A stretch of 57,440 nt of DNA, taken from the NCBI GenBank assembly GCA_027083925.1, contig JALWMK010000059.1, positions 1-57,440 of the forward strand, written 5' to 3'. The DNA comes from Sedimenticola sp. (lineage in GTDB: Bacteria; Pseudomonadota; Gammaproteobacteria; Chromatiales; Chromatiaceae). The translations under genes and the position numbers were made by a program. The notes under the pieces are model-generated. The model saw only the letters and a program-made list of their open reading frames with translations, did not search any database and had not been told where the DNA came from. Below, in pieces: positions 8,467 to 50,689 of the stretch (its first letter is position 1; every line of letters begins with the position of its first letter).

Positions 8467-8499
8467 ATCGGCCAAAAGTGTTCAAACACCTGAAAAAGC

Positions 8500-8528: not shown

Positions 8529-8535
8529 CCGCGCT

Positions 8536-8963: not shown

Positions 8964-8983
8964 TACCCGGGAGGAGTATAGAT

Positions 8984-9211: not shown

Positions 9212-9291
9212 GTTCTAAATAGAATTAACTAAGTCTCGTATGGCTTTGCTGTTCAAGAGGAAAAAGTGCCCAATCTTCTGAAAAAAACCTG

Positions 9292-10206: not shown

Positions 10207-10228
10207 GACCTAATGAGGTACAAGTAAA

Positions 10229-10681
10229 ATGGAAGTGATTCTTCTGGATAAAGTGAGTGGCCTGGGTGATCTGGGCGACAAGGTTGCAGTAAAACCCGGT
10301 TATGGCCGCAATTTTCTGATTCCCAGTGGCAAAGCAATTCCCGCCACCAGAACCAACCTTGCGGAATTTGAAAAGCGCCGTGCGGAACTGGAGAAAGAGG
10401 CTGCCGGAAAACTGGCTGTGGCGGAATCCAGGAAAGCTGCAGTGGAAGGTCTGAATGGCATTACCATCAGCCACAAGGCAGGTGAGGAAGGCAAGCTGTT
10501 CGGTTCTGTGGGCACCGTGGATATTGCCAGCGCCTGCAACGCAGCTGGCGTTGCTGTGGAAAAGAATGAAATCCGCCTTCCGGATGGTCCTATGCGTGCC
10601 ACTGGCGAGTTTGAAGTGGTGCTGCATCTGCATCCAGATGTGAATGCCATGCTGAAAGTGATTATCATCGCCGAAGAATGA
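10229..10681 (+). CDS. rplI: 50S ribosomal protein L9
   Basis: Large-subunit protein bL9 of 150 residues. The N-terminal rRNA-binding domain begins [19 protein letters not shown] and carries the family signature [14 protein letters not shown] long charged connecting helix ([17 protein letters not shown]) leads to the C-terminal domain containing [12 protein letters not shown]. Length and motifs match E. coli L9 (149 residues). Last gene of the ribosomal operon, followed by a strong terminator. Confidence 0.98.
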
Positions 10682-10774
10682 CGTTGGAGCCGTCCGGGTT
10701 TTGGGCATGACTTCCCCGGGTCGTGCCCGAGACTGGAATTGACTGCTCAGGACAAGAAGATAAGGTAACGCTGC

Positions 10775-10820
10775 AAAAAGCCGCGACAAGTAATTGTCTT
10801 GTCGCGGCTTTTTGTTTTTT
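10775..10820. terminator. Intrinsic terminator after rplI
   Basis: A perfect 16-bp stem pairs AAAAAGCCGCGACAAG (10775-10790) with CTTGTCGCGGCTTTTT (10798-10813) around a 7-nt loop. A T-rich run (tttttgttttttt) follows rightward, and an A-run lies on the opposite side, so it could act in both directions. Confidence 0.95.
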
Positions 10821-10868
10821 TATTTAGCCGCTGTTCTCAAAGCTGCATTTTTTCTGTAACCTTCCTGC

Positions 10869-12287
10869 ATGCCATTCGATACCTCTTTGTCAGAAGCCGT
10901 TCCAGACTATCCTGAAACTGATCGGGAAATGGAACAGTTGCGCATTCCTCCCCATTCCGTGCAGGCGGAGCAATCGGTGGTAGGGGGGCTGATGCTGGAC
11001 AACAGCACCTGGGATCAGATTGCCGATCGGGTGGGATCCAAGGATTTTTATCGTCATGAACATCAGCTGATTTTTTCCGCCATCCAGATTCTTGCCGATG
11101 AGCAGAAACCATTTGATGTTGTGACTCTGGCGGAAGAGCTGGAGCGCCGGGAGGAACTGGAAGACGTGGGCGGCCTGCCTTACCTGGCGGCCCTGGCGGA
11201 AGATACGCCCAGCGCGGCCAATATTCGTGCTTATGCCGATATTGTGCGGGAGCATTCGGTTACCCGCCAATTGATTCGTGTCGGCACAGAAATTGCGGAA
11301 AGTGGTTTTCGCCCGGAAGGACGCAAGGTCGCCGAATTGCTGGACAATGCGGAAAGCAAGGTGTTTCAGATTGCCGAGCAGCGACAGAAAGAAGGTGAGG
11401 GTTTTCAGGCCATCAAGGGTCTGCTGGTCAAGGCTATCGATCGTATCGAGGAGCTGCAAAGCAGTGATGAACCAATTACCGGCATCAGCACGGGGTTTGA
11501 TGATTTTGATGAAAAGACTTCCGGATTGCAGCCTGCCGACCTGGTCATCGTGGCGGGGCGTCCCTCCATGGGCAAGACCACCTTTGCCATGAATATCGCC
11601 GAGAATGCAGCCATAAAGACAGGTCTCCCGGTGGCGGTATTTTCCATGGAAATGCCCAATGAAGCGCTGACCATGCGCATGATTTCTTCTCTGGGGCGCA
11701 TCGACGGCCATCGTATCCGCACGGGAAAGCTGGAGGATGATGAGTGGCCACGCCTCACCTCTGCAATCAATATTCTCAACCAGACCAAGCTGTTTATCGA
11801 TGATACGCCGGCACTCAGCCCCACGGATCTGCGAGCCCGGGCGCGACGCCTGATGCGCGAGCAGGGTGGCAAGCTGGGCTTGATTGTCATTGACTATTTG
11901 CAGCTCATGCAGATTCCTGGTGGAGGGGAGAATCGTACCAATGAAATATCCACCATATCGCGCAGTCTCAAGGCCTTGGCCAAAGAGCTGAATGTTCCGG
12001 TCGTCGCCTTGTCCCAGCTGAACCGCAGCCTGGAACAACGCCCCAACAAACGCCCCATCATGTCCGACTTGCGGGAATCCGGCGCCATCGAGCAGGATGC
12101 GGATCTGGTAGTGTTTATTTACCGGGACGAGGTCTACAACGAAGAAAGCACCGACAAGGGTATGGCGGAAATCATCATCGGCAAGCAGCGCAATGGTCCC
12201 ATAGGCAAAGTGCGCCTGACTTTTCTGGGGCAGTTCACCAAGTTCGAGAACTATATCAATCCGGTTTATGGTGATCCTGTACATTGA
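10869..12287 (+). CDS. dnaB: Replicative DNA helicase DnaB
   Basis: Hexameric 5'-to-3' helicase of the replication fork, 472 residues, close to the E. coli length, so no intein is present. The N-terminal DnaG-interacting domain opens with RIPPHSVQAEQSVVGGLMLDN. The RecA-like C-terminal domain carries Walker A GRPSMGKTT, followed by VAVFSMEMP, Walker B LIVIDYLQLM, and LRESGAIEQDADLV with the arginine-finger region. The ATG at 10869 has no clear ribosome-binding site, but the about 20-residue pre-domain tail fits E. coli DnaB. It lies after the rplI terminator and so needs its own promoter; it heads dnaB-alr-radA. Confidence 0.98.
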   Translation: MPFDTSLSEAVPDYPETDREMEQLRIPPHSVQAEQSVVGGLMLDNSTWDQIADRVGSKDFYRHEHQLIFSAIQILADEQKPFDVVTLAEELERREELEDVGGLPYLAALAEDTPSAANIRAYADIVREHSVTRQLIRVGTEIAESGFRPEGRKVAELLDNAESKVFQIAEQRQKEGEGFQAIKGLLVKAIDRIEELQSSDEPITGISTGFDDFDEKTSGLQPADLVIVAGRPSMGKTTFAMNIAENAAIKTGLPVAVFSMEMPNEALTMRMISSLGRIDGHRIRTGKLEDDEWPRLTSAINILNQTKLFIDDTPALSPTDLRARARRLMREQGGKLGLIVIDYLQLMQIPGGGENRTNEISTISRSLKALAKELNVPVVALSQLNRSLEQRPNKRPIMSDLRESGAIEQDADLVVFIYRDEVYNEESTDKGMAEIIIGKQRNGPIGKVRLTFLGQFTKFENYINPVYGDPVH

Positions 12288-12318
12288 GCCGTACCACTCT
12301 TACTGAACTGTCAGGTTG

Positions 12319-13395
12319 ATGCCTTTTTCTCCATGGATAGAAATAGACGGCGAAGCCTTGCGGCACAATCTGAGAGTGGTGCGAAAGCATGCTGCGCATT
12401 CCCGGGTGATGGCCGTAATCAAGGCTGACGCCTACGGGCATGGCATGTTGCCGGTTGCTGCCGCTCTCGCAGAAGCTGATGGCTTCGCTGTGGCACGGGT
12501 TGATGAAGCAGCCCGGCTGCGTGAAGCCGGCATCGACAAGAAAATATTGGTGCTGTCTGGAGCTCATGATGGGCAGGAATTGCTCCAGGCCTCACGGTTG
12601 GGGGTGGAGCTGGTAATGCATCATGCTGCACAGCTCACATTGTGGGCGGAAACCGGATTGCCCCGCCCGGTAGCTGTGTGGCTGAAGCTCGATACCGGCA
12701 TGAACCGCCTGGGGTTTCCAGCGCAACAGGCACAAGAGCTGCTTTCCCGGCTGCGAAATTTGCCTGGTGTTGCGAAGGTGACCGGGATTCTCACCCATCT
12801 GGCAAACGCCGATCATCTGGAAGATGACTATACTTCGCTTCAACTGCAGCGCTTTTCCCGGGCCACTGCCGCGCTCAATCTACCGCTGTCGATTGCAAAT
12901 TCTGCGGGTATTCTGGGCTGGCCGTCCAGCCATGAGGACTGGGTGCGTCCCGGCATCATGCTCTACGGTGCTTCGCCGTTTTCCGTACAGGTGGAAGAGC
13001 TGCGACCAGCAATGACTTTTGGATCAAGGCTGATTTCTGTTAACACCATCCAGGCCGGTGAACCCATTGGCTATGGCGGCATCTGGCAGGCGCCGGAGTC
13101 CATGCCTGTTGGAGTGGTCGCAGCAGGCTATGGTGATGGTTATCCACGGGAAACGCCTGCAGGAACACCAGTGCTACTCAATAATCAGAGGGTTCCTGTT
13201 GTGGGCCGTGTCTCCATGGATACGCTGATGGTGGATTTGCGCCGGCAGCCACGGGCGCAGGTTGGTGATGAGGTGGTTCTCTGGGGACGGGGTTTGCCTG
13301 CAGAAACCATTGCGGCGGCAGTACAGACCATTCCCTATACGCTGTTTTGCGGAATTACCCCAAGGGTGCAACGCAGGGAGCGTGAGGAACGCTGA
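12319..13395 (+). CDS. alr: Alanine racemase
   Basis: PLP enzyme that interconverts L- and D-alanine for peptidoglycan, 358 residues. The PLP-binding lysine is in VIKADAYGHG near the N-terminus. The C-terminal domain supplies the second catalytic base in AAGYGDGYPR, followed by VGRVSMDTLMVDL. A TTG codon immediately precedes the ATG at 12319; I prefer ATG because an AGG is then 3 nt upstream. dnaB-alr adjacency is common in gammaproteobacteria. The gene overlaps radA by one base (TGATG), so the two are probably translated together. Confidence 0.96.
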   Translation: MPFSPWIEIDGEALRHNLRVVRKHAAHSRVMAVIKADAYGHGMLPVAAALAEADGFAVARVDEAARLREAGIDKKILVLSGAHDGQELLQASRLGVELVMHHAAQLTLWAETGLPRPVAVWLKLDTGMNRLGFPAQQAQELLSRLRNLPGVAKVTGILTHLANADHLEDDYTSLQLQRFSRATAALNLPLSIANSAGILGWPSSHEDWVRPGIMLYGASPFSVQVEELRPAMTFGSRLISVNTIQAGEPIGYGGIWQAPESMPVGVVAAGYGDGYPRETPAGTPVLLNNQRVPVVGRVSMDTLMVDLRRQPRAQVGDEVVLWGRGLPAETIAAAVQTIPYTLFCGITPRVQRREREER

Positions 13396-34879: not shown

Positions 34880-36766
34880 TCAGTCATATGCCGGATACAA
34901 GCGCCCTCTGTTGCGCAGATACTCAGAATACTTCAATATCCGGTGTAAAGAGAGGATTGTTTTTCTGTCCGCTTTATTTCTGATTCTGCTTGGCACTTCG
35001 TTGACCAGTCTTTTCCCGGTACGAAAAAATACTTTGTAGTCGGGATAAGGAGAAATGCCAAAAGCTGCATCGAAGGGGCGCGAATCGAAAAGGGCCCTCC
35101 CGAGAAATGCATTCTCCTGTATTGGATTGATATTGGCCAGTTGCAGAATGGTTGGCGCCAGGTCGACAGATGTTGCATTGATGTATTTGGCGTTGGGCAA
35201 CAAGTGCACCGGATCGTATATGATCAGGCTCATTTCATCAAAAACACTTGTTTTCCAGTTTTTCCCAGCGACTTCGACATACTCCCTGCTCTTGTAGGGG
35301 GCATGATCCCCGGTAAGGACAATGACGGTATTGTGGGCGTATTTTGAATGCTTGAAGTATTTCCAAAACAGACCGAAGGCATGGTCAAAACTATGGGTCA
35401 TGTTGAGTACACTGTTTTTGCCTTCAGCATATTTAATGCCATCCTTGGATAGCTTGAAACCAACATGCGTTTCAATGGTTGATACACCTAACAGAAACGG
35501 TTTTTCCCTGGTGTGTTTTTTCATGAACTCGGTAATGCTGCGCATCATCTGGTGATCAGAGACGCCACTGAAATCCAAGCCAAGTTTTTCTTTTCCCAGA
35601 AAGCTGTTGAGCAGATTTTGCCAAAAATAGCGTTTTTCGTAACCCCATAGCTTGAGGTTTTGGGACATATGCCATTTGCCGGGTTTGGTGTGACTGAAGT
35701 AGATTGTCTCGTAACCGGCTTCCCTGAAGAATTGTGGATAGCATTTCGTTCCCAGCTTGGCGATCAGATTGTTTTTTCCTTTCATCTGTTTGCCGGTGAT
35801 CAGCGGATACAGAGAACAATGTTGACCGAACAGGCTGGGCATGGTGGGTGTAGTGTGATTGTAGTAACCGCTCACGACTGTGGAAGATTGTGCAAATGCA
35901 TCGATGTTCGGAGTCAGTCCTTCGTAGGAGTTGCCGTAGCTGCCAAGCAGCCTTGCCGAGAGGCTCTCGACAAAGAAAACGATTACATTTGGCTTGTCCA
36001 GGGCTTTGGGAGTCGTGGTTTCGAGCTCCTGGTCGTAGATTCGTTTCTTCAGGAAGGGATAGTAACTGTCAGGGTTCACAGCCAAATTGAATCTGTCGGC
36101 GACCTCCAGATCCTCTTGTGAAGGCTGGTTGACGTCGTCTGTTTCCCTTTCCAGAAGATACAGCTTTGCTACCGTGAAAAAATTACGGAAGGGTGATGCC
36201 GGGGAGGAATACTGGTGCTGCTCTGCCTGTTCAGTATAGCGTTCAAATGCGTTTGAATGTTTGTATTTCAGTGCCAGGGGGTAGGCTATGGCCAATACAC
36301 AAAGGTAAATGATGGCCAGTTTTCCGGGGAACACATTGTGTGCAAGAAAATACAGCAACAGAAAGAACAAGGCGGCGGTCAGGAGTCCGGCCGTAAGTGT
36401 TTGGCGATTGATCAACAGCGCTATTTCATTGATATTGTAAAGTGCTGCCAGCACCAGGGGAGACCCGGATATCCCGATACTTGCCGCCTGGGCGATGAAT
36501 ATCAGGAAGTAGATGCTGAATATTGAAACGAGTACTACTTTTGCTGACCTCCAATACAGGCTTCCCGCCACCAAGAGCGCCGCATTCAATACCGATAGCT
36601 CCAATAGAACATTGAGCGTATGGTTGGCTATGGAAATCGCTTTAGAATCAGCAAAATAAATATTTTTCCAGGTAATGATGACAAAGGCTGTAATGAAAAA
36701 CAGGTTTAGCGCAAGCAATAAGAAGATGCTTTTTTTCATGCAAGTATCTTGAGACTTCCCAATCAT
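34880..36766 (-). CDS. LTA-synthase-like sulfatase-fold membrane enzyme
   Basis: A 628-residue protein. About five N-terminal membrane helices (about 10-180) are followed by an extracytoplasmic alkaline-phosphatase/sulfatase-fold domain (about 255-560). Family features: metal acid in VIVFFVESLSARLLG, probable nucleophilic threonine in NHTTPTMPSLFG, FSHTKPGKWHM, the histidine in STIETHVGF, and metal residues in LTGDHAPYK. Relatives transfer phosphoglycerol or phosphoethanolamine to surface glycans (LtaS, OpgB, EptA). The gene is visibly A+T-richer than its neighbours (one 60-nt sample at 35401 is 38% G+C), suggesting acquisition. It faces the sulfotransferase unit. An alternative start is ATG at 36739, before KKSIFLLLAL. 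Confidence 0.85.
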   Translation of the reverse strand: MIGKSQDTCMKKSIFLLLALNLFFITAFVIITWKNIYFADSKAISIANHTLNVLLELSVLNAALLVAGSLYWRSAKVVLVSIFSIYFLIFIAQAASIGISGSPLVLAALYNINEIALLINRQTLTAGLLTAALFFLLLYFLAHNVFPGKLAIIYLCVLAIAYPLALKYKHSNAFERYTEQAEQHQYSSPASPFRNFFTVAKLYLLERETDDVNQPSQEDLEVADRFNLAVNPDSYYPFLKKRIYDQELETTTPKALDKPNVIVFFVESLSARLLGSYGNSYEGLTPNIDAFAQSSTVVSGYYNHTTPTMPSLFGQHCSLYPLITGKQMKGKNNLIAKLGTKCYPQFFREAGYETIYFSHTKPGKWHMSQNLKLWGYEKRYFWQNLLNSFLGKEKLGLDFSGVSDHQMMRSITEFMKKHTREKPFLLGVSTIETHVGFKLSKDGIKYAEGKNSVLNMTHSFDHAFGLFWKYFKHSKYAHNTVIVLTGDHAPYKSREYVEVAGKNWKTSVFDEMSLIIYDPVHLLPNAKYINATSVDLAPTILQLANINPIQENAFLGRALFDSRPFDAAFGISPYPDYKVFFRTGKRLVNEVPSRIRNKADRKTILSLHRILKYSEYLRNRGRLYPAYD

Positions 36767-36934: not shown

Positions 36935-39900
36935 TCAGTGTAGCATCTGCAGCAGTTCTCGTACCTTGTTCACCCGGCTTTCCGGTTCCTCCAGGCTGGT
37001 GAAGAAACGCAGCTTGTCGCTGCCGTCCAGCCTGAATTGCTGTGGCCGGGTCTGTATGAGCTGGATGATGCGCGCCGGGTCGATGGCGGGCTGTTCCTCG
37101 AAATGAATTTTCCCACCCTGGGATCCGGCCTCGATCTTGCGGATGCCCAGGGGTTGTACTTCCAGTTTTAGTTCCGTGATGTCGAACAGGTTTTTTGCTT
37201 GCCCGGGCAGCAGGCCAAAACGGTCGATCATTTCCACCCGCAGTTCGTGCAGCTCTTCCTGGCTGGTGGCGGAGGCGATGCGCTTGTACTGGATCAGGCG
37301 CATATGCACGTCGGGCAGGTAATCCTCTGGCAGCAGGGCGGGGAGGCCCAGGTCGATTTCCGTGCCGTGATCCAGGGGGCGATCCAGCTCTGGTTGCTTG
37401 CCTTCCCTGATGGCGCGCACGGCGTGTTCCAGCATCTGGGTGTAAAGGGTGAATCCGACTTCGTGGATCTGGCCGCTCTGGTCTTCGCCCAGCAGCTCGC
37501 CCGCGCCGCGGATCTCCAGGTCATGGGTGGCCAGGGTGAAGCCGGCGCCCAGGTCTTCCAGCGCTTCCAGCGCCTGCAGGCGTTTTAGCGCATCCTTGGT
37601 CATGGCTTTGGCTGGCGGGGTGATGAGGTAGGCGTAAGCACGATGATGGGAACGCCCCACGCGACCGCGCAACTGGTGCAACTGGGCCAGTCCCAGCTTG
37701 TCTGCCCGGTTGATGATGATGGTGTTGGCGGTGGGTACGTCGATGCCGCTTTCGATGATGGTGGTGGCCACCAGGATGTTGAAGCGCTGGTGATAGAAGT
37801 CGCGCATGATGCGCTCCAGCTCACGTTCACGCATCTGGCCATGGGCAAAATCCACCCGGGCGCCTGGCGCCAGTTTTTTGATGTCTCTGACCATGCGCTC
37901 GATGCTGTTGACTTCATTGTGCAATACATAGACCTGACCGCCACGCTGCAGCTCCCGCTGGCAGGCTTCGCTGATGAGTGCATCGTTCCATTGCTGGACA
38001 AAGGTTTTTATCGGCTGGCGTTTTGCCGGAGCTGTGGCGATGATGGACAGGTCACGCATGCCGGACATGGCCATATTCAGGGTGCGTGGGATGGGGGTCG
38101 CGGTGAGAGTCAGGATGTCCACTTCGGCGCGCATTGCCTTGAGGCGCTCTTTATGGCGCACGCCGAAGCGATGTTCCTCATCGATTATCACCAGCCCCAG
38201 GTTCCTGAATTTGATCTGTTCGCTGAGGATTTTGTGGGTGCCCACGACGATATCCACGGTTCCCGCTTTCAGTCCTTTGAGTACAGCGTTGGTTTCCTTC
38301 ATGGAGTTGAAACGTGACAGCGAGGCGATCTTTACCGGCCAGTCGGCAAAACGGTCGGTGAAGTTGTCATAGTGCTGTTGCGCCAGCAGGGTGGTGGGAA
38401 CCAGCACTGCAACCTGTCTTCCACCCTGGGCAGCGACGAATGCAGCGCGCATGGCAACCTCGGTTTTGCCAAAACCCACATCGCCGCAGACTACACGATC
38501 CATGGATTTGGGGGAGGTCATGTCGGCGAGGACGTCTTCGATGGCGGATTGTTGATCCGGGGTTTCCTCGAACTCAAATTCTGCGGTGAACTGCAGATAC
38601 TCTTCACCTGCTGCGGGAAAGGCGAAGCCCTGGCGTACCTCCCGGCGGGCGTAGATCTCCAGCAGTTCTGCGGCGGCATCGCGCACTTTTTGCGCGGCTT
38701 TTTTGCGGGCCTTTTCCCACTGGTCGCTGCCCAGGCGGTGCAAAGGGGCGTTTTCTTCCGTTGCGCCCGTATAGCGGCTGATGAGATGCAGCGCGGAAAC
38801 CGGCACATACAGCTTGTCGCCCCGGGCATATTCCAGGGCCAGAAATTCTGTGGACATGCCGCCCACGTCCAGGCTCTGCAGTCCCAGATAGCGGCCCACG
38901 CCGTGTTCTTCATGCACTACGGGGGATCCAATCTGTAATTCGGTCAGGTTGCGTACGACCTGGTCGGCATCCGGGCCTGCCTTGCGGCGCTTGCGGGTCT
39001 GGCGCACCCGTTCCCCCAGCAGCAGGGTTTCGGAGATGATGGTCAGGTCGGCATCGGTGAGATCCAGCCCTTCTTCCAGGGGTGCGACGGTAATTCCCAG
39101 AGGAATATCGCTCTGCAGGAATGCCTGCAGATTTTCCACAACGGTTGGGCGCAGCTGGAATTCGGTGAGGGTCTGCAGCAGATGTTCCCGCCGGCCAGCG
39201 CTTTCTGCGGTGAACAGCGTACGTGATTTCCGGTTGGCGAGAAAATCCTGCAGCAGTCCAGCAGGGCGAGCCGACCGGGCCTGTACGGCGAGGGCGGGCA
39301 GGGGAGCGGCGTTGAAGTTGTAGTGCCGGGCAAATCCCTTGCGCCGCTCGTCCACATTTCCGGTACGCCAATGTATGCCGGCATATGGCTTTAGCCTGTG
39401 CACCAATTCATCTGCATTCAGATACAGTTTTGAAGGGGGCAGCAGGGGGCGCTCGAGGTCGTGGCGGCGCTGCTCGTAGCGCTCTTCCACCTGCTGGTAG
39501 AAATGCGCCGCTTCCTGGGGGATGTCCCGAGGCTGTATGACCAGGCAACCCTCTCCCAGATAGTCAAACAATGTGGCTGCCTGCTCATGGAACAGTGGCA
39601 GATAGTATTCCAGTCCGCCCGGCATGTTTCCGTCACTGACTTCCCGATAGATCAGGCTGGACTGGGGGTCGCCTTCAAACTGGTTGCGATATCGGCGGCG
39701 GAAGCGGGTGATCGCCTCTTCATCTACCGGGAATTCCCGTGCGGGCAACAGGCGAACGCTGTCCACTTTTTCCGAAGAGCGCTGGGTTTCCGGATCGAAC
39801 AGGCGAATGCTGTCGATCTCGTCATCGAACAAGTCGATGCGGTAGGGCCGGTCTGTGCCCATGGGAAACAGATCCAGCAGCGAGCCGCGCACGGCAAATT

Positions 39901-40411
39901 CGCCATGCTCCATTACCTGGGAGACGCAGCGATAGCCCGAGCGCTCCAGGCGCTGCCGAAAGCGCTCGATGTCCAGCTGCCCCCCGGTATCGAGCACCAG
40001 GCTGCGGCTATCCAGGTAGTCCGGTGGCAGAATGCGCTGCTGCAATGTCGCCACAGGCACGATGATGATGCCTTTTTTTGCTGCTTGCAATCGCTGCAGG
40101 GTCAGCAAACGCTGGGATACCAGCTCCGGCAATGGCGAGAATACATCGTAGGGAAGGGTTTCCCAATCCGGAAAATGCAGGATGGGCAGCTGCTTGTCCT
40201 GAAGGAAGAATCCCAGGGTCTGTTCCAGGCGGGCGGCCTCCTGCACATCCCGGGCAACCACGACTGCCAGACCGGGCCATTGTTGTGCAGCCCGGGCGAT
40301 AGCCAGTTCATGCACCGCCCCGCTACAGCGCCCCCATTGCAGACGTTCCCCGGTTTTTCCCGGCAAGGGGGGGTGGACAGCGGAGGCGGTTTGTTCAGCA
40401 AGCAGGCTCAT
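36935..40411 (-). CDS. mfd: Transcription-repair coupling factor Mfd
   Basis: A 1158-residue DNA translocase that removes stalled RNA polymerase and recruits UvrA; length matches E. coli Mfd (1148). The N-terminal UvrB-like module (about 1-340) contains FPDWETLPYDVFSP. The RNA-polymerase-interacting domain is at about 490-570 (VVHEEHGVGRYLGLQSL). The SF2 motor has Walker A GDVGFGKTE, DEEHRFGV, TATPIPRTL and LHQLRGRVGR, and the C-terminal TRCF domain follows. It is oriented leftward and diverges from the exported protein at 40545. Confidence 0.98.
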   Translation of the reverse strand: MSLLAEQTASAVHPPLPGKTGERLQWGRCSGAVHELAIARAAQQWPGLAVVVARDVQEAARLEQTLGFFLQDKQLPILHFPDWETLPYDVFSPLPELVSQRLLTLQRLQAAKKGIIIVPVATLQQRILPPDYLDSRSLVLDTGGQLDIERFRQRLERSGYRCVSQVMEHGEFAVRGSLLDLFPMGTDRPYRIDLFDDEIDSIRLFDPETQRSSEKVDSVRLLPAREFPVDEEAITRFRRRYRNQFEGDPQSSLIYREVSDGNMPGGLEYYLPLFHEQAATLFDYLGEGCLVIQPRDIPQEAAHFYQQVEERYEQRRHDLERPLLPPSKLYLNADELVHRLKPYAGIHWRTGNVDERRKGFARHYNFNAAPLPALAVQARSARPAGLLQDFLANRKSRTLFTAESAGRREHLLQTLTEFQLRPTVVENLQAFLQSDIPLGITVAPLEEGLDLTDADLTIISETLLLGERVRQTRKRRKAGPDADQVVRNLTELQIGSPVVHEEHGVGRYLGLQSLDVGGMSTEFLALEYARGDKLYVPVSALHLISRYTGATEENAPLHRLGSDQWEKARKKAAQKVRDAAAELLEIYARREVRQGFAFPAAGEEYLQFTAEFEFEETPDQQSAIEDVLADMTSPKSMDRVVCGDVGFGKTEVAMRAAFVAAQGGRQVAVLVPTTLLAQQHYDNFTDRFADWPVKIASLSRFNSMKETNAVLKGLKAGTVDIVVGTHKILSEQIKFRNLGLVIIDEEHRFGVRHKERLKAMRAEVDILTLTATPIPRTLNMAMSGMRDLSIIATAPAKRQPIKTFVQQWNDALISEACQRELQRGGQVYVLHNEVNSIERMVRDIKKLAPGARVDFAHGQMRERELERIMRDFYHQRFNILVATTIIESGIDVPTANTIIINRADKLGLAQLHQLRGRVGRSHHRAYAYLITPPAKAMTKDALKRLQALEALEDLGAGFTLATHDLEIRGAGELLGEDQSGQIHEVGFTLYTQMLEHAVRAIREGKQPELDRPLDHGTEIDLGLPALLPEDYLPDVHMRLIQYKRIASATSQEELHELRVEMIDRFGLLPGQAKNLFDITELKLEVQPLGIRKIEAGSQGGKIHFEEQPAIDPARIIQLIQTRPQQFRLDGSDKLRFFTSLEEPESRVNKVRELLQMLH

Positions 40412-40544: not shown

Positions 40545-41336
40545 ATGTGCAAGTCGATAACAATCCTGTTTTTGATGATCTTGTCGTCCAGCCTGTCCAT
40601 GGGAGTGATGGCGAGCAGTGATTATTATGAGAATGTGGAAATTGAGGTGATTTCCGATAACCGTGGGGAGTTGCGCCAGTATCCTGTCCGTTCCCATGGC
40701 AACAAGCAGCGCGCCTATATTGCAGCGCGTGATGGCGAGCGCTACAGCATTCGTGTGCGCAACCGCAGTGGTGAGCGTATCGGGGTGGTGATTGCTGTGG
40801 ATGGCCGCAATATCATCAGCGGCAAGAAATCCTGGCTCAAGCGTAGGGAGGCGAAATATGTGCTTGGCCCCTGGGAAACTGCGGAATACGAAGGCTGGCG
40901 CACCAGTCGGCAGCGGGTCAACCGCTTCTATTTTACCGATGTTGGCGATGCCTATGCCGATGCCTGGGGGGATCACAGCGCCATGGGGGTTATCGCCGTG
41001 GCGGTATATGGGGAGAAGCATCGCAAGCGCCATGATTACAGCATGCAGAAGAAACGGGACGGCTATTCGGCACGCAGTGAAGCCATGCGTGATGCCCCCG
41101 GCACCGGATTTGGTGAAAGTGAATGGTCGCCGAGCCACAAGGTCAGGTTCAAGGCGCGCAAGAAGCCCATATTCAAGAAATTCATCAAGTATGAATGGCG
41201 CAGAACCCTGTGTCGGAAAGGCATCATTCCCAGGTGTGGGCATCGTGATGGTGACTATGGCAATCGCTTCTGGCCACATGAGGACTGGAACGATGATTTT
41301 GCGCCCTATCCCCGGGGGTGGGGCCATCGGCATTGA
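40545..41336 (+). CDS. Exported conserved protein of unknown function
   Basis: A 263-residue protein with a signal peptide of about 23 residues (ILFLMILSSSLSMGVMASS). The mature part has a conserved core: VEIEVISDNRG, RAYIAARDGERYSIRVRNRSG, VVIAVDGRNIISGKKSWL, GPWETAEYEGWRTS, VNRFYFTDVGDAYADAWGD and MGVIAVAVYGEK. Similar exported proteins occur in many proteobacteria without assigned function. The last 80 residues are basic and aromatic (FKARKKPIFKKF...GWGHRH). GGAG is 7 nt before the ATG at 40545. It is a single gene between mfd and a small reverse-strand frame. Confidence 0.83.
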   Translation: MCKSITILFLMILSSSLSMGVMASSDYYENVEIEVISDNRGELRQYPVRSHGNKQRAYIAARDGERYSIRVRNRSGERIGVVIAVDGRNIISGKKSWLKRREAKYVLGPWETAEYEGWRTSRQRVNRFYFTDVGDAYADAWGDHSAMGVIAVAVYGEKHRKRHDYSMQKKRDGYSARSEAMRDAPGTGFGESEWSPSHKVRFKARKKPIFKKFIKYEWRRTLCRKGIIPRCGHRDGDYGNRFWPHEDWNDDFAPYPRGWGHRH

Positions 41337-41382: not shown

Positions 41383-41553
41383 CTAGCCGGATTTGGCTGC
41401 CCAGATCAGTCCGGCGGCCCCGGCGATCACCAATGCGAAGGTGACCAGCGAGCCGCCCAGAGCATGTCCCTGGTTGACCAAAGCGGATACGCCACCATAA
41501 AACATCATCAGCGCCGCAAAAACTGCTCCGAGAATTAACAAGGGTTTTTTCAT
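41383..41553 (-). CDS. Small two-helix membrane protein
   Basis: A 56-codon frame from ATG at 41553: KKPLLILGAVFAALMMFYGG then a short polar turn (NQGHALGGS) and LVTFALVIAGAAGLIWAAKSG. Both halves are hydrophobic, giving an N-in/C-in helical hairpin. There is no clear ribosome-binding site, but the start with two lysines and the ending are typical of small inner-membrane proteins. It diverges from the RND/MMPL gene with about 70 nt between starts. No family is recognised. Confidence 0.55.
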   Translation of the reverse strand: MKKPLLILGAVFAALMMFYGGVSALVNQGHALGGSLVTFALVIAGAAGLIWAAKSG

Positions 41554-41625
41554 GGTAAATGGCCGCGTCTGGAAGGTTTCGGAGTATCATAAAGTATTCC
41601 GCAACAGTACAGAACCGGATTGCTT

Positions 41626-43911
41626 GTGAGTCAAGCCTATTTCTCATGGATTTTGCGCCACAGATGGCTGGTGGTGGTACTCAGTGTGCTGCTGATGGGA
41701 TTGACGGCATCAGGCGTGCGTTTTCTTGGTTTCAGCAATGACTACCGCATGTTCTTCAGTGAGGAAAATCCGCAATTGCTGGCGTTCGAGGCATTGCAGG
41801 ACACCTATACCAAGACAGACAATGTATTGTTCGTCGTCTCCCCCAGGGGTGGTGATGTATTCACCCCCGAGGCGCTGGCCACGGTGGAATGGCTGACCAG
41901 AGAAGCCTGGCAGATCCCCTATTCCCTGCGTGTCGATTCCATTACCAACTACCAACACACGGAAGCGGAGGAAGACGATCTGCTGGTGGCGAACCTGGTG
42001 GAAGAGGCGGAAACCCTGGATACGCAGCAGTTGCAGAGAGTGCGCCAGATCGCGTTGAATGAACCGCTGTTGCTTGATCGCCTGGTTTCTCCCGATGGCA
42101 AGCACACTGGTGTCAATATCACTGTGCAACTGCCGGGCAAGAAGTTGGATGAGGTGCCGGAGGTGGCGGCGTTCGCCCGGCAGCTTGCCCAGCAGGCGAT
42201 GCAGCGGAATCCTGATCTGGATGTTCGGCTGACCGGCCTGGTGATGATGAACGCCGCTTTTCCCGAGATGGCGCAGCGGGACATGCAGACCCTGTATCCA
42301 CTGATGCTGCTGATTATACTGGCTGCCATGGCCATCATGTTGCGATCCATTTCCGGTGTGCTGGCATCCATGCTGGTATTGGTAATGGCGGTTTTCGCCA
42401 CCCTGGGACTGACCGGTTGGATCGGCATGGAAATGAGTCCGCCAACCACCAGTGCGCCGGTAATGGTCATGACCCTTGCGGTAGCAGACTGCATACACAT
42501 CATCGTCTTGTTCCTGCAGGGATTGCGCAAGGGAGAGCGCAAGGAAGCGGCCATGCTGGAAAGCCTGCGCCTGAACCTGGGGCCGGTTTTTCTCACCTCG
42601 ATTACCACCGCCATCGGCTTTCTCAGCCTGAACTTCAGTGATGCGCCACCGTTTCGGGATCTGGGCAATATGGCGGCGATGGGTGTGATGGTGGCGTTCG
42701 TGCTTTCCCTGAGCTTTTTGCCTGCCCTGCTCATGATTCTGCCGGTGCGTCCCGGCACCCGCCATACTCGTGGTCAGGGGGTGATGGAATGGCTGGGTGA
42801 TTTCGTCGTCCGCAGGCGCACGCCCTTGTTCTGGGGCATGGCGGTAACCATGTTGTTGCTGGTGAGCCAGTTGCCGCGCAATCAGCTCAATGATGAATTC
42901 ATCAAATACTTCAGTGAAGATGTGCCTTTCCGCGTGGATACGGATTTTGCGGTGGAGCATCTTACGGGCATCTATCTGCTGGAATACTCCCTGCCAGCGG
43001 GTGGCGAGGGCATGATTGCCGATCCACAGTATCTGCATCAGGTAGAGGCGTTCGCCCAGTGGCTGCGGCAACAGCCGGAGGTGCTGCATGTCAACAGCAT
43101 CACCGATATCATGAAGCGGCTGAACAAGAACATGCATGGCGACGATCCCGCATGGTACAAGCTGCCGGATGACCGGGAGCTGGCGGCGCAGTATCTCCTG
43201 TTGTATGAGTTTTCCCTGCCTTTCGGCCTGGATCTGAACAACCAGATCAATGTAAAAAAGTCGGCAACCCGACTGGTCGCCAGCCTGAAGAGCATTTCTT
43301 CTGAGGAGCTGCTGGTGCTGGATGAAAAAGCCTACCGGTGGTTGGTGGACAACGCGCCGCAGTACATGCAAACTCATGGCGCCAGCCCGTCGGTGATGTT
43401 CGCCAATATCGGGCATCGCAACATCCGGGCCATGCTTCAGGGAACTACGGTGGCGCTGGTGCTCATCTCGCTGATCCTGATGGTTTCCCTTCGCTCGGTG
43501 CGCATCGGCCTGCTCAGCCTCATCCCCAATCTTGCTCCCATTGGCATGGCTTTCGGCTTGTGGGGAATGTTTGTCGGACAGGTGGGGCTGGCGCTTTCCG
43601 TGGTGAGCGGTATGACCATTGGCATCGTGGTTGATGATACGGTGCATTTTTTGAGCAAATACCTGCGTGCCCGGCGGGAGCGGGGATTCAGTTCGGAGCA
43701 AGCGGTGCAGTATGCTTTTCGTACCGTAGGCACGGCGCTGTGGGTGACTACGTTGGTGCTGATGCTGGGCTTCGGGGTGCTGGCGCTTTCGGATTTCGAG
43801 CTTAACGCCAGCATGGGGCTGCTGACGGCCATTACCATCGGCCTGGCGTTGTTTGCCGACTTCTTTTTTCTGCCGCCCCTGTTGATGAAATTTGGAGACA
43901 AGAAAAAATGA
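41626..43911 (+). CDS. RND/MMPL-family exporter permease
   Basis: A membrane protein of about 761 residues built as two repeats, each one helix plus a large extracytoplasmic loop plus five helices. The first helix is WLVVVLSVLLMGLTASGVRFLG. Functional helices carry conserved acids: LAVADCIHIIVLFLQGLR in the first half and GMTIGIVVDDTVHFLSKYL in the second. Each is followed by the paired TTAIGFLSLNFSD / TTLVLMLGFGVLALSDF element typical of the COG1033 exporter family. The start is GTG at 41626 or TTG at 41620, with no strong ribosome-binding site for either. It overlaps the LolA-like gene (ATGA); together they appear to be an envelope transport unit. The cargo is probably lipidic, by analogy. 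Confidence 0.93.
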   Translation: MSQAYFSWILRHRWLVVVLSVLLMGLTASGVRFLGFSNDYRMFFSEENPQLLAFEALQDTYTKTDNVLFVVSPRGGDVFTPEALATVEWLTREAWQIPYSLRVDSITNYQHTEAEEDDLLVANLVEEAETLDTQQLQRVRQIALNEPLLLDRLVSPDGKHTGVNITVQLPGKKLDEVPEVAAFARQLAQQAMQRNPDLDVRLTGLVMMNAAFPEMAQRDMQTLYPLMLLIILAAMAIMLRSISGVLASMLVLVMAVFATLGLTGWIGMEMSPPTTSAPVMVMTLAVADCIHIIVLFLQGLRKGERKEAAMLESLRLNLGPVFLTSITTAIGFLSLNFSDAPPFRDLGNMAAMGVMVAFVLSLSFLPALLMILPVRPGTRHTRGQGVMEWLGDFVVRRRTPLFWGMAVTMLLLVSQLPRNQLNDEFIKYFSEDVPFRVDTDFAVEHLTGIYLLEYSLPAGGEGMIADPQYLHQVEAFAQWLRQQPEVLHVNSITDIMKRLNKNMHGDDPAWYKLPDDRELAAQYLLLYEFSLPFGLDLNNQINVKKSATRLVASLKSISSEELLVLDEKAYRWLVDNAPQYMQTHGASPSVMFANIGHRNIRAMLQGTTVALVLISLILMVSLRSVRIGLLSLIPNLAPIGMAFGLWGMFVGQVGLALSVVSGMTIGIVVDDTVHFLSKYLRARRERGFSSEQAVQYAFRTVGTALWVTTLVLMLGFGVLALSDFELNASMGLLTAITIGLALFADFFFLPPLLMKFGDKKK

Positions 43912-44687
43912 CCAAACTACTGATCATGCTTCTGGTTGCGTTGCCCGGCTTCAATGCAAGCGCGCAAACCCAGGAAGAAAAAGGCCTGACAATTGCCCTG
44001 GAGGTGGATCGCAGGGATAGCGGCTGGGGTGATTTCCAGGCGCAGATGGGCATGCTGCTGCGCAACCGCCATGGTGAGGAAAGTCTGCGGCAGATGCGGG
44101 TGAAATCCCTGGAGACGGCTGATGATGGTGACAAGAGCCTGATCGTTTTCGATGAACCAAAGGATGTGAAGGGCACCGCGCTGCTGACCTTCTCCCATAA
44201 GGTCAAAGATGACGACCAGTGGCTGTATCTGCCTGCCCTGAAAAGGGTCAAGCGTATTGCATCGCGCAACAAATCCGGTCCTTTCATGGGCAGTGAATTT
44301 GCCTTCGAAGATCTGGCTTCCCAGGAAGTGGAAAAATATACCTACCAGTACATCAGGGATGATGAACTGGATGGCAAGCCGGTGTTTATCAATGAGCGTT
44401 ATCCGGCCAGCAAGTATTCCGGTTATACCCGGCAGCTGGTATGGGTGGATCAGAAGGAATACATTCCTCTCAAGGTGGAATATTACGATCGCAAGAATGC
44501 CTTGCTCAAGACTCTGATATTCAAGAGCTATCGGCAATATCTTGACAGATACTGGCGTGCGGATGAAATGTTCATGGAAAACCATCAGACCGGAAAAAGC
44601 ACCTTGCTGACCTGGAAGGACTACCGCTTCGGTACCGGTCTCAAGGACAGTGACTTCACCCGCAACAGCCTGAAGCGCATGCGCTAA
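43908..44687 (+). CDS. LolA-like outer-membrane lipoprotein-sorting family protein
   Basis: An exported protein of 259 residues with a signal peptide of about 19 residues (LIMLLVALPGFNASAQ). The mature protein is a half-barrel of the LolA/LolB type. Conserved patterns include LTIALEVDRRDSGWGDFQAQMGM, DEPKDVKGTALLTFSHK, WLYLPALKRVKRIAS, GPFMGSEFAFEDL and WVDQKEYIPLKVEYYDRK. The family often sits next to MMPL/RND exporters and is thought to carry a hydrophobic molecule across the periplasm. It overlaps the permease gene by 4 nt and is followed after 4 nt by a barrel protein. Confidence 0.9.
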   Translation: MTKLLIMLLVALPGFNASAQTQEEKGLTIALEVDRRDSGWGDFQAQMGMLLRNRHGEESLRQMRVKSLETADDGDKSLIVFDEPKDVKGTALLTFSHKVKDDDQWLYLPALKRVKRIASRNKSGPFMGSEFAFEDLASQEVEKYTYQYIRDDELDGKPVFINERYPASKYSGYTRQLVWVDQKEYIPLKVEYYDRKNALLKTLIFKSYRQYLDRYWRADEMFMENHQTGKSTLLTWKDYRFGTGLKDSDFTRNSLKRMR

Positions 44688-44691
44688 CGTC

Positions 44692-45876
44692 ATGCATGCC
44701 CTGTTGCCTGTCCTTCTGCTTTCTCTCGCTGCGGGAAATGCCCTGGCCTGGCGGCTGGCCGGAAATATGGCAATGGAAAGCCGGGTTTTCTTTCAGCAGC
44801 CCCTGGATGCGAGCCAATATGGCGCTGATTATTCCGTCAGCATGGAGCCAGAGTTTTCCCATCAATGGGACGATGACCGGCAAAGTCTGGTGTTCCGCCC
44901 TTTCGCCCGTCTGGATCGCCATGATGATGAACGCAGTCATTGGGATATTCGCGAGCTGCAATGGGTCTATGCGGGCGATGGCTGGGAGGCTCGCCTGGGG
45001 GTGGGAAGGATCTACTGGGGCGTTACGGAGGCCGTGCATCTGGTGGACATCATCAATCAGACGGATCTGGTGGAAAACATCGATGGCGAGCAAAAGCTGG
45101 GCCAACCCATGGTCAAATTGTCCCTGGAGGAAGACTGGGGAACCCTGGATTTTTTTCTTTTGCCGGGCTTCCGTGAGCGCACTTTTCCCGGTGAGGAAGG
45201 GAGGCTGCGCAGTCATTCCAGGGTAGAACAGGATTTGGTGGAGTATGAATCTTCCGCCGGGCAGCGCCATGTGGATTACGCCTTGCGCTGGTCCCATTAC
45301 ATCGGGGAGTGGGATATGGGGCTGGCCTGGTTTCAGGGTACAGGGCGGGATCCGCTTTTTCGGCCTGGGTTTACCCGCAAAGGCGAGCTTGTGCTTGCGC
45401 CATTCTATGAGCAGACCAGCCAGGCCAGTGTGGATCTGCAGGCGACTTTGGGAGAGTGGCTATGGAAGCTGGAAGCCATTTATCGCAACGGCCTGGAAGA
45501 AGACTACTATGCTTTCACCGGAGGTTTCGAATATACCCGGATTGGGATCCTGGACACCGCCGCAGATCTTGGTGTAATTGCCGAACTGGTGATGGATGAA
45601 AGGGGTGATCAGGCAGCCACGGCGTTCAATCATGATGTATTTCTTGGCTTGCGCTGGACGGCAAACGACGCGCAGAGCCTGACAGTGCTGGCGGGCGCGG
45701 TCGTGGACTGGGAGAACGGCTCCACCTTGCTGAACCTGGAAGCCAGCCGCCGGTTTGGCCAGGCCTATCTGTTTAGCGTACAGCTACGCAGCTGGTTGCA
45801 TATCGATCCAGAGGATTTGCAATACATTTTTCGTCAGGATGACTACCTCCAGGTGGAGCTTGCCCGTTATTTCTAG
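44692..45876 (+). CDS. Predicted outer-membrane beta-barrel protein
   Basis: A 394-residue exported protein with a signal peptide (LLPVLLLSLAAGNALA, cleavage near residue 19). The mature part alternates amphipathic strands with aromatic girdles, for example VFRPFARLDRHDDERSHWDIRE, WEARLGVGRIYWGVTEAVHLVD and DYALRWSHYIGEWDMGLAWFQG, and it ends VELARYF with a C-terminal aromatic, as outer-membrane barrels do. The layout resembles DUF1302/alginate-porin-type proteins found with MMPL exporters. It is 4 nt after the LolA-like gene and completes an inner-membrane, periplasm and outer-membrane set. Confidence 0.8.
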   Translation: MHALLPVLLLSLAAGNALAWRLAGNMAMESRVFFQQPLDASQYGADYSVSMEPEFSHQWDDDRQSLVFRPFARLDRHDDERSHWDIRELQWVYAGDGWEARLGVGRIYWGVTEAVHLVDIINQTDLVENIDGEQKLGQPMVKLSLEEDWGTLDFFLLPGFRERTFPGEEGRLRSHSRVEQDLVEYESSAGQRHVDYALRWSHYIGEWDMGLAWFQGTGRDPLFRPGFTRKGELVLAPFYEQTSQASVDLQATLGEWLWKLEAIYRNGLEEDYYAFTGGFEYTRIGILDTAADLGVIAELVMDERGDQAATAFNHDVFLGLRWTANDAQSLTVLAGAVVDWENGSTLLNLEASRRFGQAYLFSVQLRSWLHIDPEDLQYIFRQDDYLQVELARYF

Positions 45877-45994: not shown

Positions 45995-47110
45995 TCATTT
46001 CACCCGGTTGGCCGCCTTGCCGGAATCCAGTATGGCACGAACGGCTTCAGCAGCTTCTTGCAGATTGCCATGCTTGCCCATATGTTTGAGGATCAACGCG
46101 CCAGTGTAAACCAGTGAGTCATATGTCACCCCCTGTTTTCCATTGAGTGCCTGCATCCCGGCGTCAGCAGCCGCCAGGGCGGCGTCCTTGCTGTCCACGG
46201 CAATGGCAATCTCGTCGCCCGGGCGCGCAATTTTTGGCAGATTTTCCGGCAGAGGAACCGCACGCAGGGTTTGTGTGATACCAGCCATATCCGGATGGAT
46301 GTCCACGCCGATTTCTTCTCCCCGGTCGTGGTAGCTGAAGTAGTTTCCGTCCTGCCTCAGAGAAGGAATGATGCCGCCTTCTACACCACGGACAAGCAAG
46401 GCTGAATCGAACCCGACATGGCGGGCCAGCATGGCGTAAACCGGCGGGTAGGGCTTGTGCACATAACCGCTGACAAAATGTGTCTGCTGCCTGCCAGCTA
46501 CTGGCTTGGCCAGTACCTCCACTGTGGTGAGCACCTGGCGCTTGATCATCAGGGTGCGCAGGGGAATCAGGTCATGCAGCGGCTTGCAGAAGTTGGCCTG
46601 GTCAACATAGGCCCAGCCGGTATCCGGGTTGGACAGTCGCTGGGCGGCCTGCCGGGAATCAAGGCCAACATCAACGCCTGCCGCCCGCAGCACCTGATGG
46701 TGGGTGATGCCAAATTTTGGCCCCACGGCGCTCAGGCCATGAGAGATGGGGTGCAGGCCACATTCCGCCAGCAGCGGTGAAAGAAAGGGTGCTGCTGGCA
46801 GCGTGCGGTTGTAGCCGCCATAGGGGTCGGCAATGTCGATGACGTGGTCAACCTTGGCTGTTACACCATCTACAACTTCCCGAACGCCGTCCAGTACGCC
46901 CTTGAATTCGTCACTGCTTTCCCTTTTCATGCGCAGGGCGATAAAAAAAAGTGCGGCTTGCACCGGGTGTATCTGGTCATGCAATACGGCAACGGTCGCA
47001 TCCCGGGCTTCGTCCAGGCTGATGTCCTTGGAAAGCTCTGGCCCGGTAGCAATGCGTTGCAGGATGGAATGCATGAGCATATGAGCCTGAGTGGTTTTGG
47101 TGGCAGTCAT
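45995..47110 (-). CDS. TrpD-like (glycosyltransferase family 3) protein, non-canonical
   Basis: A 371-residue protein with the anthranilate phosphoribosyltransferase fold: an all-helical N-terminal domain (DISLDEARDATVAVLHDQIHPVQAALFFIALRMK) and an alpha/beta domain. The two substrate loops are changed: GTGGD is replaced by ADPYGGYNRT, and KHGNR-type residues by SHGLSAVGPKFG. Such TrpD2/YbiB-like paralogues are not tryptophan enzymes; E. coli YbiB binds nucleic acid. No trp genes are nearby. AAGGAG lies 5 nt before the ATG. The gene precedes a small exported protein's locus on the opposite side and converges with the barrel gene. Confidence 0.82.
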   Translation of the reverse strand: MTATKTTQAHMLMHSILQRIATGPELSKDISLDEARDATVAVLHDQIHPVQAALFFIALRMKRESSDEFKGVLDGVREVVDGVTAKVDHVIDIADPYGGYNRTLPAAPFLSPLLAECGLHPISHGLSAVGPKFGITHHQVLRAAGVDVGLDSRQAAQRLSNPDTGWAYVDQANFCKPLHDLIPLRTLMIKRQVLTTVEVLAKPVAGRQQTHFVSGYVHKPYPPVYAMLARHVGFDSALLVRGVEGGIIPSLRQDGNYFSYHDRGEEIGVDIHPDMAGITQTLRAVPLPENLPKIARPGDEIAIAVDSKDAALAAADAGMQALNGKQGVTYDSLVYTGALILKHMGKHGNLQEAAEAVRAILDSGKAANRVK

Positions 47111-47526: not shown

Positions 47527-47685
47527 CCTGAATCCGTGGGTTCATGACGGCGCATAGCGCAAGCGCTTGATCCCCGAGCGGTCCAAAAAATGCCCGCTTG
47601 ACCTGAGGGTGAGGCTAAGATGTTTTGATTCCACCGGGAAATCAATATCATACGCTCTGCATCCGCCCTGAACCCACGGATTCAG
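47527..47685. repeat. 160-bp MITE-like inverted-repeat element, copy B
   Basis: Aligned gap-free with copy A at 14769-14927, with about 11 differences in 159 positions. Ends: CCTGAATCCGTGGGTTCA and TGAACCCACGGATTCAG, a perfect 17-bp inverted pair. It has no open reading frame. The differences include both transitions and transversions, and the ends are more perfect here than in copy A. No clear target-site duplication is seen. Confidence 0.85.
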
Positions 47686-49438: not shown

Positions 49439-50689
49439 ATGTTTTATCCTCTGTCAGTCTGGATCGGCCTGCGCTATACCCGCGCAGAACGCCGGAATCA
49501 CTTCATTTCCTTTATCTCTTTCATTTCCACCATGGGGATCACCCTGGGGGTGATTGTTTTGATCACCGTGTTGTCGGTGATGAATGGATTCCACAAAGAA
49601 GTTCGTGAACGTATTCTCGGCATGGCCTCTCATGCGGATATCAATGCTGTGTCCGGCGGTGGCATGAAAAATTGGCGGCAAGCGCTGGAGCAAGCCAGGC
49701 AACATCCGAGAGTGGTAGGAGCAGCTCCTTATGTGGAAGTCATGTCCATGCTGGTGCATGGCAAGCAGGTAAGTGGTGCGCTGGTTCGTGGGGTGTTGAA
49801 AGACATGGAGCCGGGCGTTGTGGATGTGGGGCAGCATATGGAGGCGGGGTCTCTGGATGACCTGGTGCCGGGAGGCTTCAACATTGTTTTGGGGAGGGAG
49901 CTGGCGTATGCCCTGCGGGTTAAGGTGGGGGATAAAATTACCATGCTGGTGCCCAAGTTCACTTCTACCCCTGCCGGCACCATGCCGAGAACGAAGCGTT
50001 TCGTGGTTAGCGGGATCTTCAGCGTTGGTATGGGGGAATATGATCGTGGCATAGCCATGGTAGACATGCGGGATCTGGCAAAACTGTTGCGCATGGGGGA
50101 TGCGGTATCCGGTATTCGCCTCAAACTGGATGACCTGTATGCGGCAACCCAGGTTTCCAGGGAGTTGGCATCGCAGTTCAGCGGCCTGTTTCGCGTTTCT
50201 GACTGGACGGATCAACACCGGAATTTCTTTTCCGCCCTGAAGATGGAGAAGCGCATGATGGGGCTGCTGCTGTTTTTTATTGTTGTGATTGCGGCCTTCA
50301 ATATTGTTGCTACTCTGGTGATGGTTGTGGTGGACAAACGGGCGGATATTGCGATCCTCAAGACCTTTGGTGCATCGCCCCGGCAGATTATGTATATCTT
50401 CATCGTACAGGGATCCGTAATCGGACTCGTGGGCACCGTTATCGGTGTGGTGCTGGGAGTGCTGTTGGCGGTGAACGTGGAGCAGGTAGTAGGGTGGATT
50501 GAATCCTTGTTCAACGTACAGTTTATTGATCCCAGCGTGTATTACATCAGCATGTTGCCATCCCAACTACGCTGGGAGGACGTGCTGTTGGTTGGCGTTG
50601 GGTCTTTCCTCTGCAGCTTCCTCATGACGCTTTACCCTGCCTGGAATGCATATCGCACCTCTCCGGCAGAGGCGTTGCGCTATGAGTAA
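49439..50689 (+). CDS. lolC: LolC/LolE-family lipoprotein-releasing permease
   Basis: An inner-membrane permease of 416 residues. TM1 is at about residues 22-45 ([27 protein letters not shown]), then a periplasmic MacB-type domain (about 50-265). Three helices follow at about 275-300, 320-345 and 375-400, the FtsX-type end. With LolD it extracts lipoproteins from the inner membrane for transfer to LolA. Only one LolC/E gene is present here and lolE does not follow lolD, so this may be a LolF-type single permease working as a homodimer. A -10 TATAAT is at 49427-49432. The stop overlaps lolD by 8 nt. Confidence 0.93.

Follow-up and report, generated by a model that had tools for sequence, protein, structure and literature searches.

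The closest described system to the gene set reported here is the AmeABCD cassette of Castellaniella defragrans. According to the available part of its report, AmeABCD combines a permease of the HAE3 kind from the resistance-nodulation-division (RND) superfamily, a periplasmic protein of the LolA superfamily and an outer-membrane barrel in one cassette, and its authors think it likely that the AmeD lineage, together with its cassettes, forms a new subfamily of HAE3 (PMC6394551). Here we report a comparative analysis of a three-gene unit with this same layout in Sedimenticola sp., located at positions 41626-45876 of contig JALWMK010000059.1, whose analysed stretch of 57,440 nucleotides is referred to below as the window. 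The parts of the two systems differ: the Ame barrel belongs to DUF1302 (605 aa), its carrier to DUF1329 (451 aa), and an extra periplasmic protein, AmeC, is present in the cassette as presented in that part of the report (PMC6394551), whereas the triad has a 394-aa barrel without a Pfam family, a 259-aa PF17131 carrier and no fourth gene. The DUF1302 domain by which an AmeABCD-type cassette is recognised was not found in the window barrel, and one of 15 barrel orthologues matches it at E 0.026. No paper on the triad itself was recognised in the open literature, a scope that mostly leaves out subscription journals.

The triad also recalls the mycobacterial PKS-MmpL7-LppX system for export of phthiocerol dimycocerosate (PDIM), with which it shares an MmpL-type permease, a LolA-fold carrier and, on two plasmids carrying relatives, polyketide synthase (PKS) or acyl genes beside it. 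In contrast to that system, the window contains no PKS; LppX is a lipoprotein, and we know of no such barrel in mycobacterial PDIM export. The BstABC sterol transporters of Methylococcus likewise include an inner-membrane RND protein with periplasmic and outer-membrane-associated parts that were proposed to form a lipid conduit, but in the available part of the report BstB belongs to a phosphonate-binding family, and the outer-membrane-associated BstC was expressed as a soluble construct (PMC10942540). Two further candidates were rejected on the accessible parts of their reports, one describing VexAB-TolC and not the triad (PMC10805010) and the other the Borrelia protein BBJ25, which is part of an ABC-driven system (PMC13078400).

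The three genes are arranged in the window as follows.

41626-43911, forward strand: RND-superfamily (MMPL) permease gene, 761 aa, GTG start
43908-44687, forward strand: LolA-like periplasmic carrier gene, 259 aa, PF17131
44692-45876, forward strand: outer-membrane barrel gene, 394 aa, no Pfam or NCBIfam family

These coordinates confirm the preliminary description of the locus, which had the genes overlapping or at most 4 nt apart: the permease and carrier genes overlap by 4 nt (ATGA), and a gap of 4 nt separates the carrier gene from the barrel gene. No gene lies between the members, and the next gene past the barrel is on the opposite strand. The GTG at 41626 is supported as the permease start, because an ATG is aligned at the corresponding place in L044, L045 and L049 of the genus alignment.

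That the three proteins form a three-layer unit is strongly supported by their folds, by conserved gene order and by near-perfect co-occurrence, also in genomes where the genes lie apart. Co-occurrence was assessed in 143 genomes from 143 genera across the class using three profiles, with E-value cut-offs of 1e-30 for the outer-membrane protein, 1e-50 for LolA and 1e-150 for RND. The barrel family was found in 54 genomes, the carrier in 51 and the permease in 53; 51 genomes have all three genes, 89 have none and only three have a partial set, namely G109 (about 780 contigs) and G156 (about 470 contigs), which lack just the carrier, and G171, which retains nothing but a stop-bearing piece of the barrel. 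The pairwise association of the families is accordingly strong (Fisher p <= 1.3e-35, uncorrected for phylogeny), and separate occurrence of the three genes, which had been named in advance as the observation that would speak against a unit, did not hold across genomes. In 40 of the 51 genomes each of the two neighbour pairs is separated by no more than 1,500 nt, in G042 and G132 across a contig break. In the other 11 the genes are not all adjacent and all three are still kept; two of these (G097 and G164) look like contig breaks, and eight have parts on different contigs or apart, the distance to contig ends not having been checked for each. The decisive case is G155, a single contig of 2.96 Mb in which the permease gene lies about 1 Mb from those of the carrier and barrel. 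Since the genes are inherited together even when unlinked, we argue that they serve a common function.

The conservation extends beyond this sample. A search with the carrier matched 30 of 55 genomes, including that of the window. In named sequence records, 585 of 594 pattern matches encode relatives, and among the best 80 of at least 585 loci the order RND-LolA-OMP (OMP being the outer-membrane protein), on one strand and within 1 kb, is found in 69. These conserved loci come from Gammaproteobacteria, Desulfobulbaceae, Nitrospinaceae, Nitrospirota, Pelagicoccus and others, and the barrel family occurs in named Vibrio, Shewanella and Colwellia records, among others. The alignments of 76 and 49 sequences (A5 and A6) take in part of the matches.

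The permease matches the Pfam family MMPL (PF03176) at E 2.5e-42, with 145.5 bits against a gathering cut-off of 20.5. Its best NCBIfam match, HAE3 (TIGR00921), is below cut-off (165 vs 351.9), and it scores 13.5 against a cut-off of 1400 on the BstA model and likewise far below the cut-off on that of MmpL3. The predicted structure (pLDDT 86.5, pTM 0.80) contains, in our own reading of the helix list, 12 transmembrane (TM) helices and a pair of periplasmic domains, each about 170 aa long, a helix count that rests on the model, as a hydropathy scan gave overlapping segments and no clean number. MmpL4/5 head both lists of structure matches (Z 46), and AcrB-type pumps, Patched, Dispatched, NPC1-type proteins, SecDF, MmpL3 and HpnN all follow within 3 Z units, so that fold comparison picks out no single RND family; as modelled, the protein is an RND transporter to which the MmpL, NPC1, HpnN and AcrB types are about equally near. 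The hopanoid transporter HpnN, for instance, shares the RND fold (Z 44.0, 4.0 Å over 656 residues) but differs in that the permease stays under the cut-offs of both HpnN models (TIGR03480, 123.5 vs 751.85; NF052374, 52.7 vs 1100) and that its own genome gave no hopene cyclase match. Across 49 sequences, residues D670 and H674 of TM10 and H291 of TM4 do not vary, D671 is retained in 47, and position 288 holds D in 38 sequences and N in the other 11; a proton relay may run through the D670/H674/H291 region. Unlike the tripartite HAE1 pumps (RND-MFP-TolC), the triad has no gene for a membrane fusion protein (MFP) or outer-membrane efflux protein (OEP) among the seven window neighbours scanned with Pfam, unlinked partners not having been searched for. 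This absence and the small size of the periplasmic domains argue for a hand-off from the permease to the carrier.

The carrier is covered over its full length by LolA_like, PF17131 (profile positions 2-184 of 184, E 1.7e-66, 223.8 bits against a cut-off of 30), with a second, weaker Pfam match to DUF1329 (E 3.5e-9) and none to canonical LolA (PF03548) at E 0.1. Residues 23-257 match the solved chain 3bk5, which we take to be of Vibrio origin, at E 1.6e-96, and the chains 4z48 and 9tp6 match at E 4.5e-36 and 7.5e-36; for most of these solved LolA-like structures the function is unknown, as stated in the available part of PMC6394551. Both the carrier and the barrel begin with a hydrophobic leader that has no Cys within the first 35 residues, and are thus not lipoprotein-like.

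For the barrel, neither Pfam nor NCBIfam yields a match at E 0.1, a 15-row profile of the family finds no solved chain at E 1, and the 15 aligned orthologues yield, apart from the single DUF1302 match, one match each to Caps_assemb_Wzi (E 0.0013) and WDR93 (E 0.23). The AlphaFold2 model built on the 76-row alignment (pLDDT 93.9, pTM 0.87) has 18 strands as counted from the strand list, with both ends periplasmic and a C-terminal RYF. AlgE and porins head the Foldseek matches, with E about 1e-8 and TM-scores of 0.4-0.6, and VIA-align gives OccD3 at Z 23.5 (3.1 Å over 295 residues), AlgE at Z 22.9 and other Occ porins and OprD at Z 22-23, at 10-14% identity. The model therefore bears out the outer-membrane fold that had been claimed from sequence, and it is of a porin type nearest to OprD/Occ and AlgE, the likeness being one of fold only, as no sequence family is shared. 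The second observation named in advance as speaking against the unit, a barrel without such a fold, thereby also failed to hold. The capsule assembly barrel Wzi is also similar (2ynk, Z 19.7) and is the family matched by one orthologue, but the window barrel itself does not match it, and OprD/Occ and AlgE score higher. TolC-type chains are absent among the 50 structure matches listed, which proves nothing alone. The third long loop (106-137) is the most conserved part of the barrel, with a mean identity of 0.85 compared with 0.49-0.75 for the strands.

On these grounds we consider it somewhat probable that the triad is a proton-driven, usually TetR-controlled export route for a lipid-like amphiphile. 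The RND permease would take its cargo from the inner membrane at the expense of the proton gradient and push it upward between the two small periplasmic domains; the soluble LolA-like protein would accept it in a hydrophobic half-barrel and ferry it across the periplasm; and the barrel would receive it past the conserved long loop and release it outside or into the outer membrane. A TetR-family repressor encoded upstream in most relatives would presumably sense the cargo or a proxy of it. The preliminary description had proposed a complete path for a probably hydrophobic cargo, of which the three-layer unit stands on folds, order and co-occurrence, while transport as such, its energy coupling and direction, the protein-to-protein hand-off and the nature of the cargo are inferred.

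Hints at the cargo come from plasmid-borne relatives, which were found in six records, three of them examined (Sulfitobacter, Halioglobus and Pseudoalteromonas). On the Sulfitobacter plasmid pDSM110093_b the gene order is type I PKS, RND (E 1e-217), carrier, galE and barrel (E 4e-71); the scanned part of the PKS has acyltransferase, dehydratase, enoyl-reductase-like, ketoreductase and carrier-protein domains, and glycosyltransferase and condensation-domain genes surround the set. On the Halioglobus plasmid pRR3-57 a tightly spaced triad with a distant permease (387 bits) follows genes for a short-chain dehydrogenase/reductase, an AMP-binding enzyme (AMP-ligase) and a FAD oxidoreductase, and P450, KAS-III-like and polyketide-cyclase-like genes lie further on, beyond a transposase gene. 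The cargo would thus be an amphiphilic small molecule with a long acyl chain or of a polyketide type. As the carriers of these two plasmids are only 40% and 47% identical to that of the window, they point to a kind of cargo and not to the window's own. Hopanoids, which had been suggested earlier, and wax esters are disfavoured by the gene searches: the genome of the window, 98.8% complete, has no squalene-hopene cyclase match at E 1e-10, this enzyme occurs in five of the 51 genomes with a triad and in 16 of the 92 others (p 0.32, no association), and no match to wax ester synthase/diacylglycerol acyltransferase was found in this genome, with eight of the 143 genomes having one.

To describe the regulation of the triad, we scanned the proteins encoded upstream of the permease. 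Seven of the 80 named loci have no permease directly upstream and ten have no open reading frame (ORF) before the permease owing to a contig edge, leaving 63 upstream genes, and L099 and L114 were left out since their upstream ORFs run off the contig. TetR_N was found in 43 of the 61 proteins scanned, with C-terminal domains TetR_C_27 in 20, TetR_C_13 in 11 and TetR_C_24 in 10; given these several kinds of domain, TetR regulators were apparently recruited more than once. Ten further upstream proteins include five of the TetR type, among them those of L052 and L057, which are of the same family, together with a phosphatidylserine decarboxylase (L061), a glutathione S-transferase (L059), a response regulator (L048), a 2OG-Fe(II) oxygenase (L056) and a protein without a family (L049). 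The genome of the window has three TetR_N proteins, all on other contigs, and a displaced regulator was not evident among them, the best alignments to operon-linked TetRs being 23-36% identical; the lineage of the window apparently either lost the usual TetR regulator or never possessed it. Upstream of the permease, an alignment of ten sequences from the genus contains no common palindrome that could serve as a conserved operator. The earlier statement that neither a regulator nor a biosynthetic gene is attached holds for the seven window neighbours scanned, where no regulator or lipid biosynthesis gene was found, and fails for the family, in which 43 of 61 upstream proteins are TetRs and two of three plasmids have biosynthesis genes.

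The frequent TetR is also in line with AmeABCD-like efflux of toxic hydrophobics, exogenous or from metabolism, such as solvents, terpenes or fatty acids, where the path would be the same and the cargo a poison instead of a product. Among similar cassettes the one described best, Ame of Castellaniella, is connected with monoterpenes in the available part of its report (PMC6394551), and, TetR clusters aside, none of the neighbours is found repeatedly at one set position in more than five of the 80 loci, with Pfam annotation covering upstream proteins only. Against this stand the PKS or acyl biosynthesis genes beside the triad on two plasmids and the strong conservation of a long loop in the barrel, a feature not required of a general exit; we regard efflux as a possible but less than probable explanation.

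Several observations weigh against the export route that we prefer. The cut-offs of the co-occurrence survey were chosen in this analysis. Eleven of the 80 named loci lack a full triad (four have neither partner, four no barrel and three no permease in place); some may be explained by loci ending within 400 nt (L131, L147), by a permease in pieces (L122) or by a permease a few kb off (L130, L153), but L107, L124, L128 and L142 are incomplete despite ample flanks. Genomes G113 and G165 hold extra RND-LolA pairs without an adjoining barrel. Neither the RND nor the porin fold fixes a direction, and AcrB-type pumps are as near to the permease as MmpL. With respect to cargo, the low carrier identity of the two informative plasmids counts here as well, and the Pseudoalteromonas plasmid, the carrier of which is 56% identical, has no such biosynthesis genes. 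Uptake porins of the FadL type occur somewhat more often in genomes with the triad (39 of 51) than in the others (51 of 92, p 0.018). Finally, the one apparent permease-carrier fusion, in G120, might be an assembly error at the overlapping stop. The RND-LolA pairs without an adjoining barrel and the four barrel-less loci, of which L131 lies at the end of a contig, would fit a working pair of permease and carrier with an ordinary porin merely encoded in the same operon, an explanation made rather unlikely by the presence of the barrel in all 51 genomes that have the other two, even when unlinked.

The G120 fusion, which if genuine favours a joint route of permease and carrier, is a single 1069-aa frame preceded by a TetR gene, with the permease at 16-777 and the carrier at 827-1069, and it keeps the leader of the carrier as an internal hydrophobic stretch that could place the carrier part in the periplasm. 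A different combination was observed in L184 (G150; 2359-5124, reverse strand), where a frame of 921 aa beside an OEP gene encodes a LolA_like domain at its C-terminus together with two response-regulator receiver stretches and a single hydrophobic one. Uptake of hydrophobic nutrients, in which the barrel would admit the compound, the carrier would take it across and the RND protein would work inward or act as a lipid acceptor, keeps some probability on account of the FadL enrichment and agrees with the NPC1-type folds among those nearest to the permease. MmpL relatives, in contrast, are exporters, and we judge uptake improbable. A Thalassolituus protein with MMPL and LolA-like domains, 42-fold up on the long-chain C28 alkane in the available part of its report, also speaks for uptake (PMC6304351), while its union of the two domains supports, like the G120 fusion, the joint route of permease and carrier.

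The surroundings of the triad contain the following features, the family assignments being from Pfam/NCBIfam scans.

34880-36766, reverse strand: sulfatase-family protein gene
36935-40411, reverse strand: Mfd gene
40545-41336, forward strand: gene for a 263-aa secreted-looking protein, between mfd and the triad
41585-41590, forward strand: weak candidate for a -10-like hexamer (TATCAT), located by eye before the permease gene and present in 5 of 10 aligned genus sequences
45995-47110, reverse strand: TrpD/YbiB-like protein gene
49439-50689: LolC/E-type permease gene
also among the neighbours scanned: a 101-aa ORF without a family, and PPK2

The LolC/E-type gene and the LolA-like family of the carrier could suggest an alternative branch of lipoprotein sorting (Lol). 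Canonical LolA is, however, encoded on another contig of the same genome (C156), the carrier gave no PF03548 match at E 0.1, and the neighbourhood is local, with LolC in three and Mfd in five of the 80 loci, many of which are short. The Lol system is moreover powered by an ABC transporter and not by an RND protein, and we consider such a branch very improbable. The 263-aa protein was found in L043, L044, L045 and L049 of the genus and in none of the 80 named loci at E 1e-30. Between its gene and the permease a small hydrophobic ORF of about 56 aa was noticed by eye (41383-41553, reverse strand), with similar DNA in L043, L045 and L049. Intergenic DNA also contains, as seen by eye, an inverted repeat of 17 bases (CTGAATCCGTGGGTTCA with its reverse complement; 47528-47544 and 47669-47685), whose copies are about 125 bases apart and perhaps mark the ends of a small mobile element.

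Other envelope genes and arrangements were recorded along the way. A second envelope cassette in the genome of the window (L071, G000:C68:5000-19160, positions 5340-12769) consists of consecutive genes for two PF17131 proteins, a protein of 732 aa weakly similar to the barrel (E 2.8e-6) and an MMPL permease of 949 aa. L072 (G000:C128, 6692-9586) encodes an MMPL permease of 964 aa that carries a cyclic-nucleotide-binding domain at its C-terminus, and its gene adjoins a divergent CDP-alcohol phosphatidyltransferase gene. Five Nitrospina-type loci (L097, L098, L106, L109 and L123), and only these among the 80, have a gene for 435-464 aa on the same strand 9-127 nt past the barrel, possibly a lineage-specific fourth part. 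In L166 (Pseudoalteromonas plasmid p1) the barrel gene precedes RND-LolA in inverted orientation, and the carrier gene is followed by gmtY, an integrase gene and gmtX, which make up a gamma-mobile-trio set. Open frames of more than 24,000 aa in the search tables (G170:C7, G053:C168) are perhaps an artefact of N stretches.

The triad places 3bk5, a structure solved without a function assigned to it, in a pathway, together with a barrel family that has not been catalogued, and it bears on how lipids other than lipopolysaccharide reach and cross the outer membrane, for which cultivable hosts exist. As a tentative proposal, it may represent a further widespread Gram-negative lipid route beside Lpt, Mla/MCE and Lol, made up of a pump of the MmpL type, a soluble shuttle with a LolA fold and an exit barrel of its own. 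These parts would be inherited together, in most cases with a TetR regulator, and bacteria would have linked them on two or more occasions to the synthesis of polyketides or acyl lipids, in the manner of the mycobacterial PKS-MmpL-LppX systems except that the route ends in a barrel.

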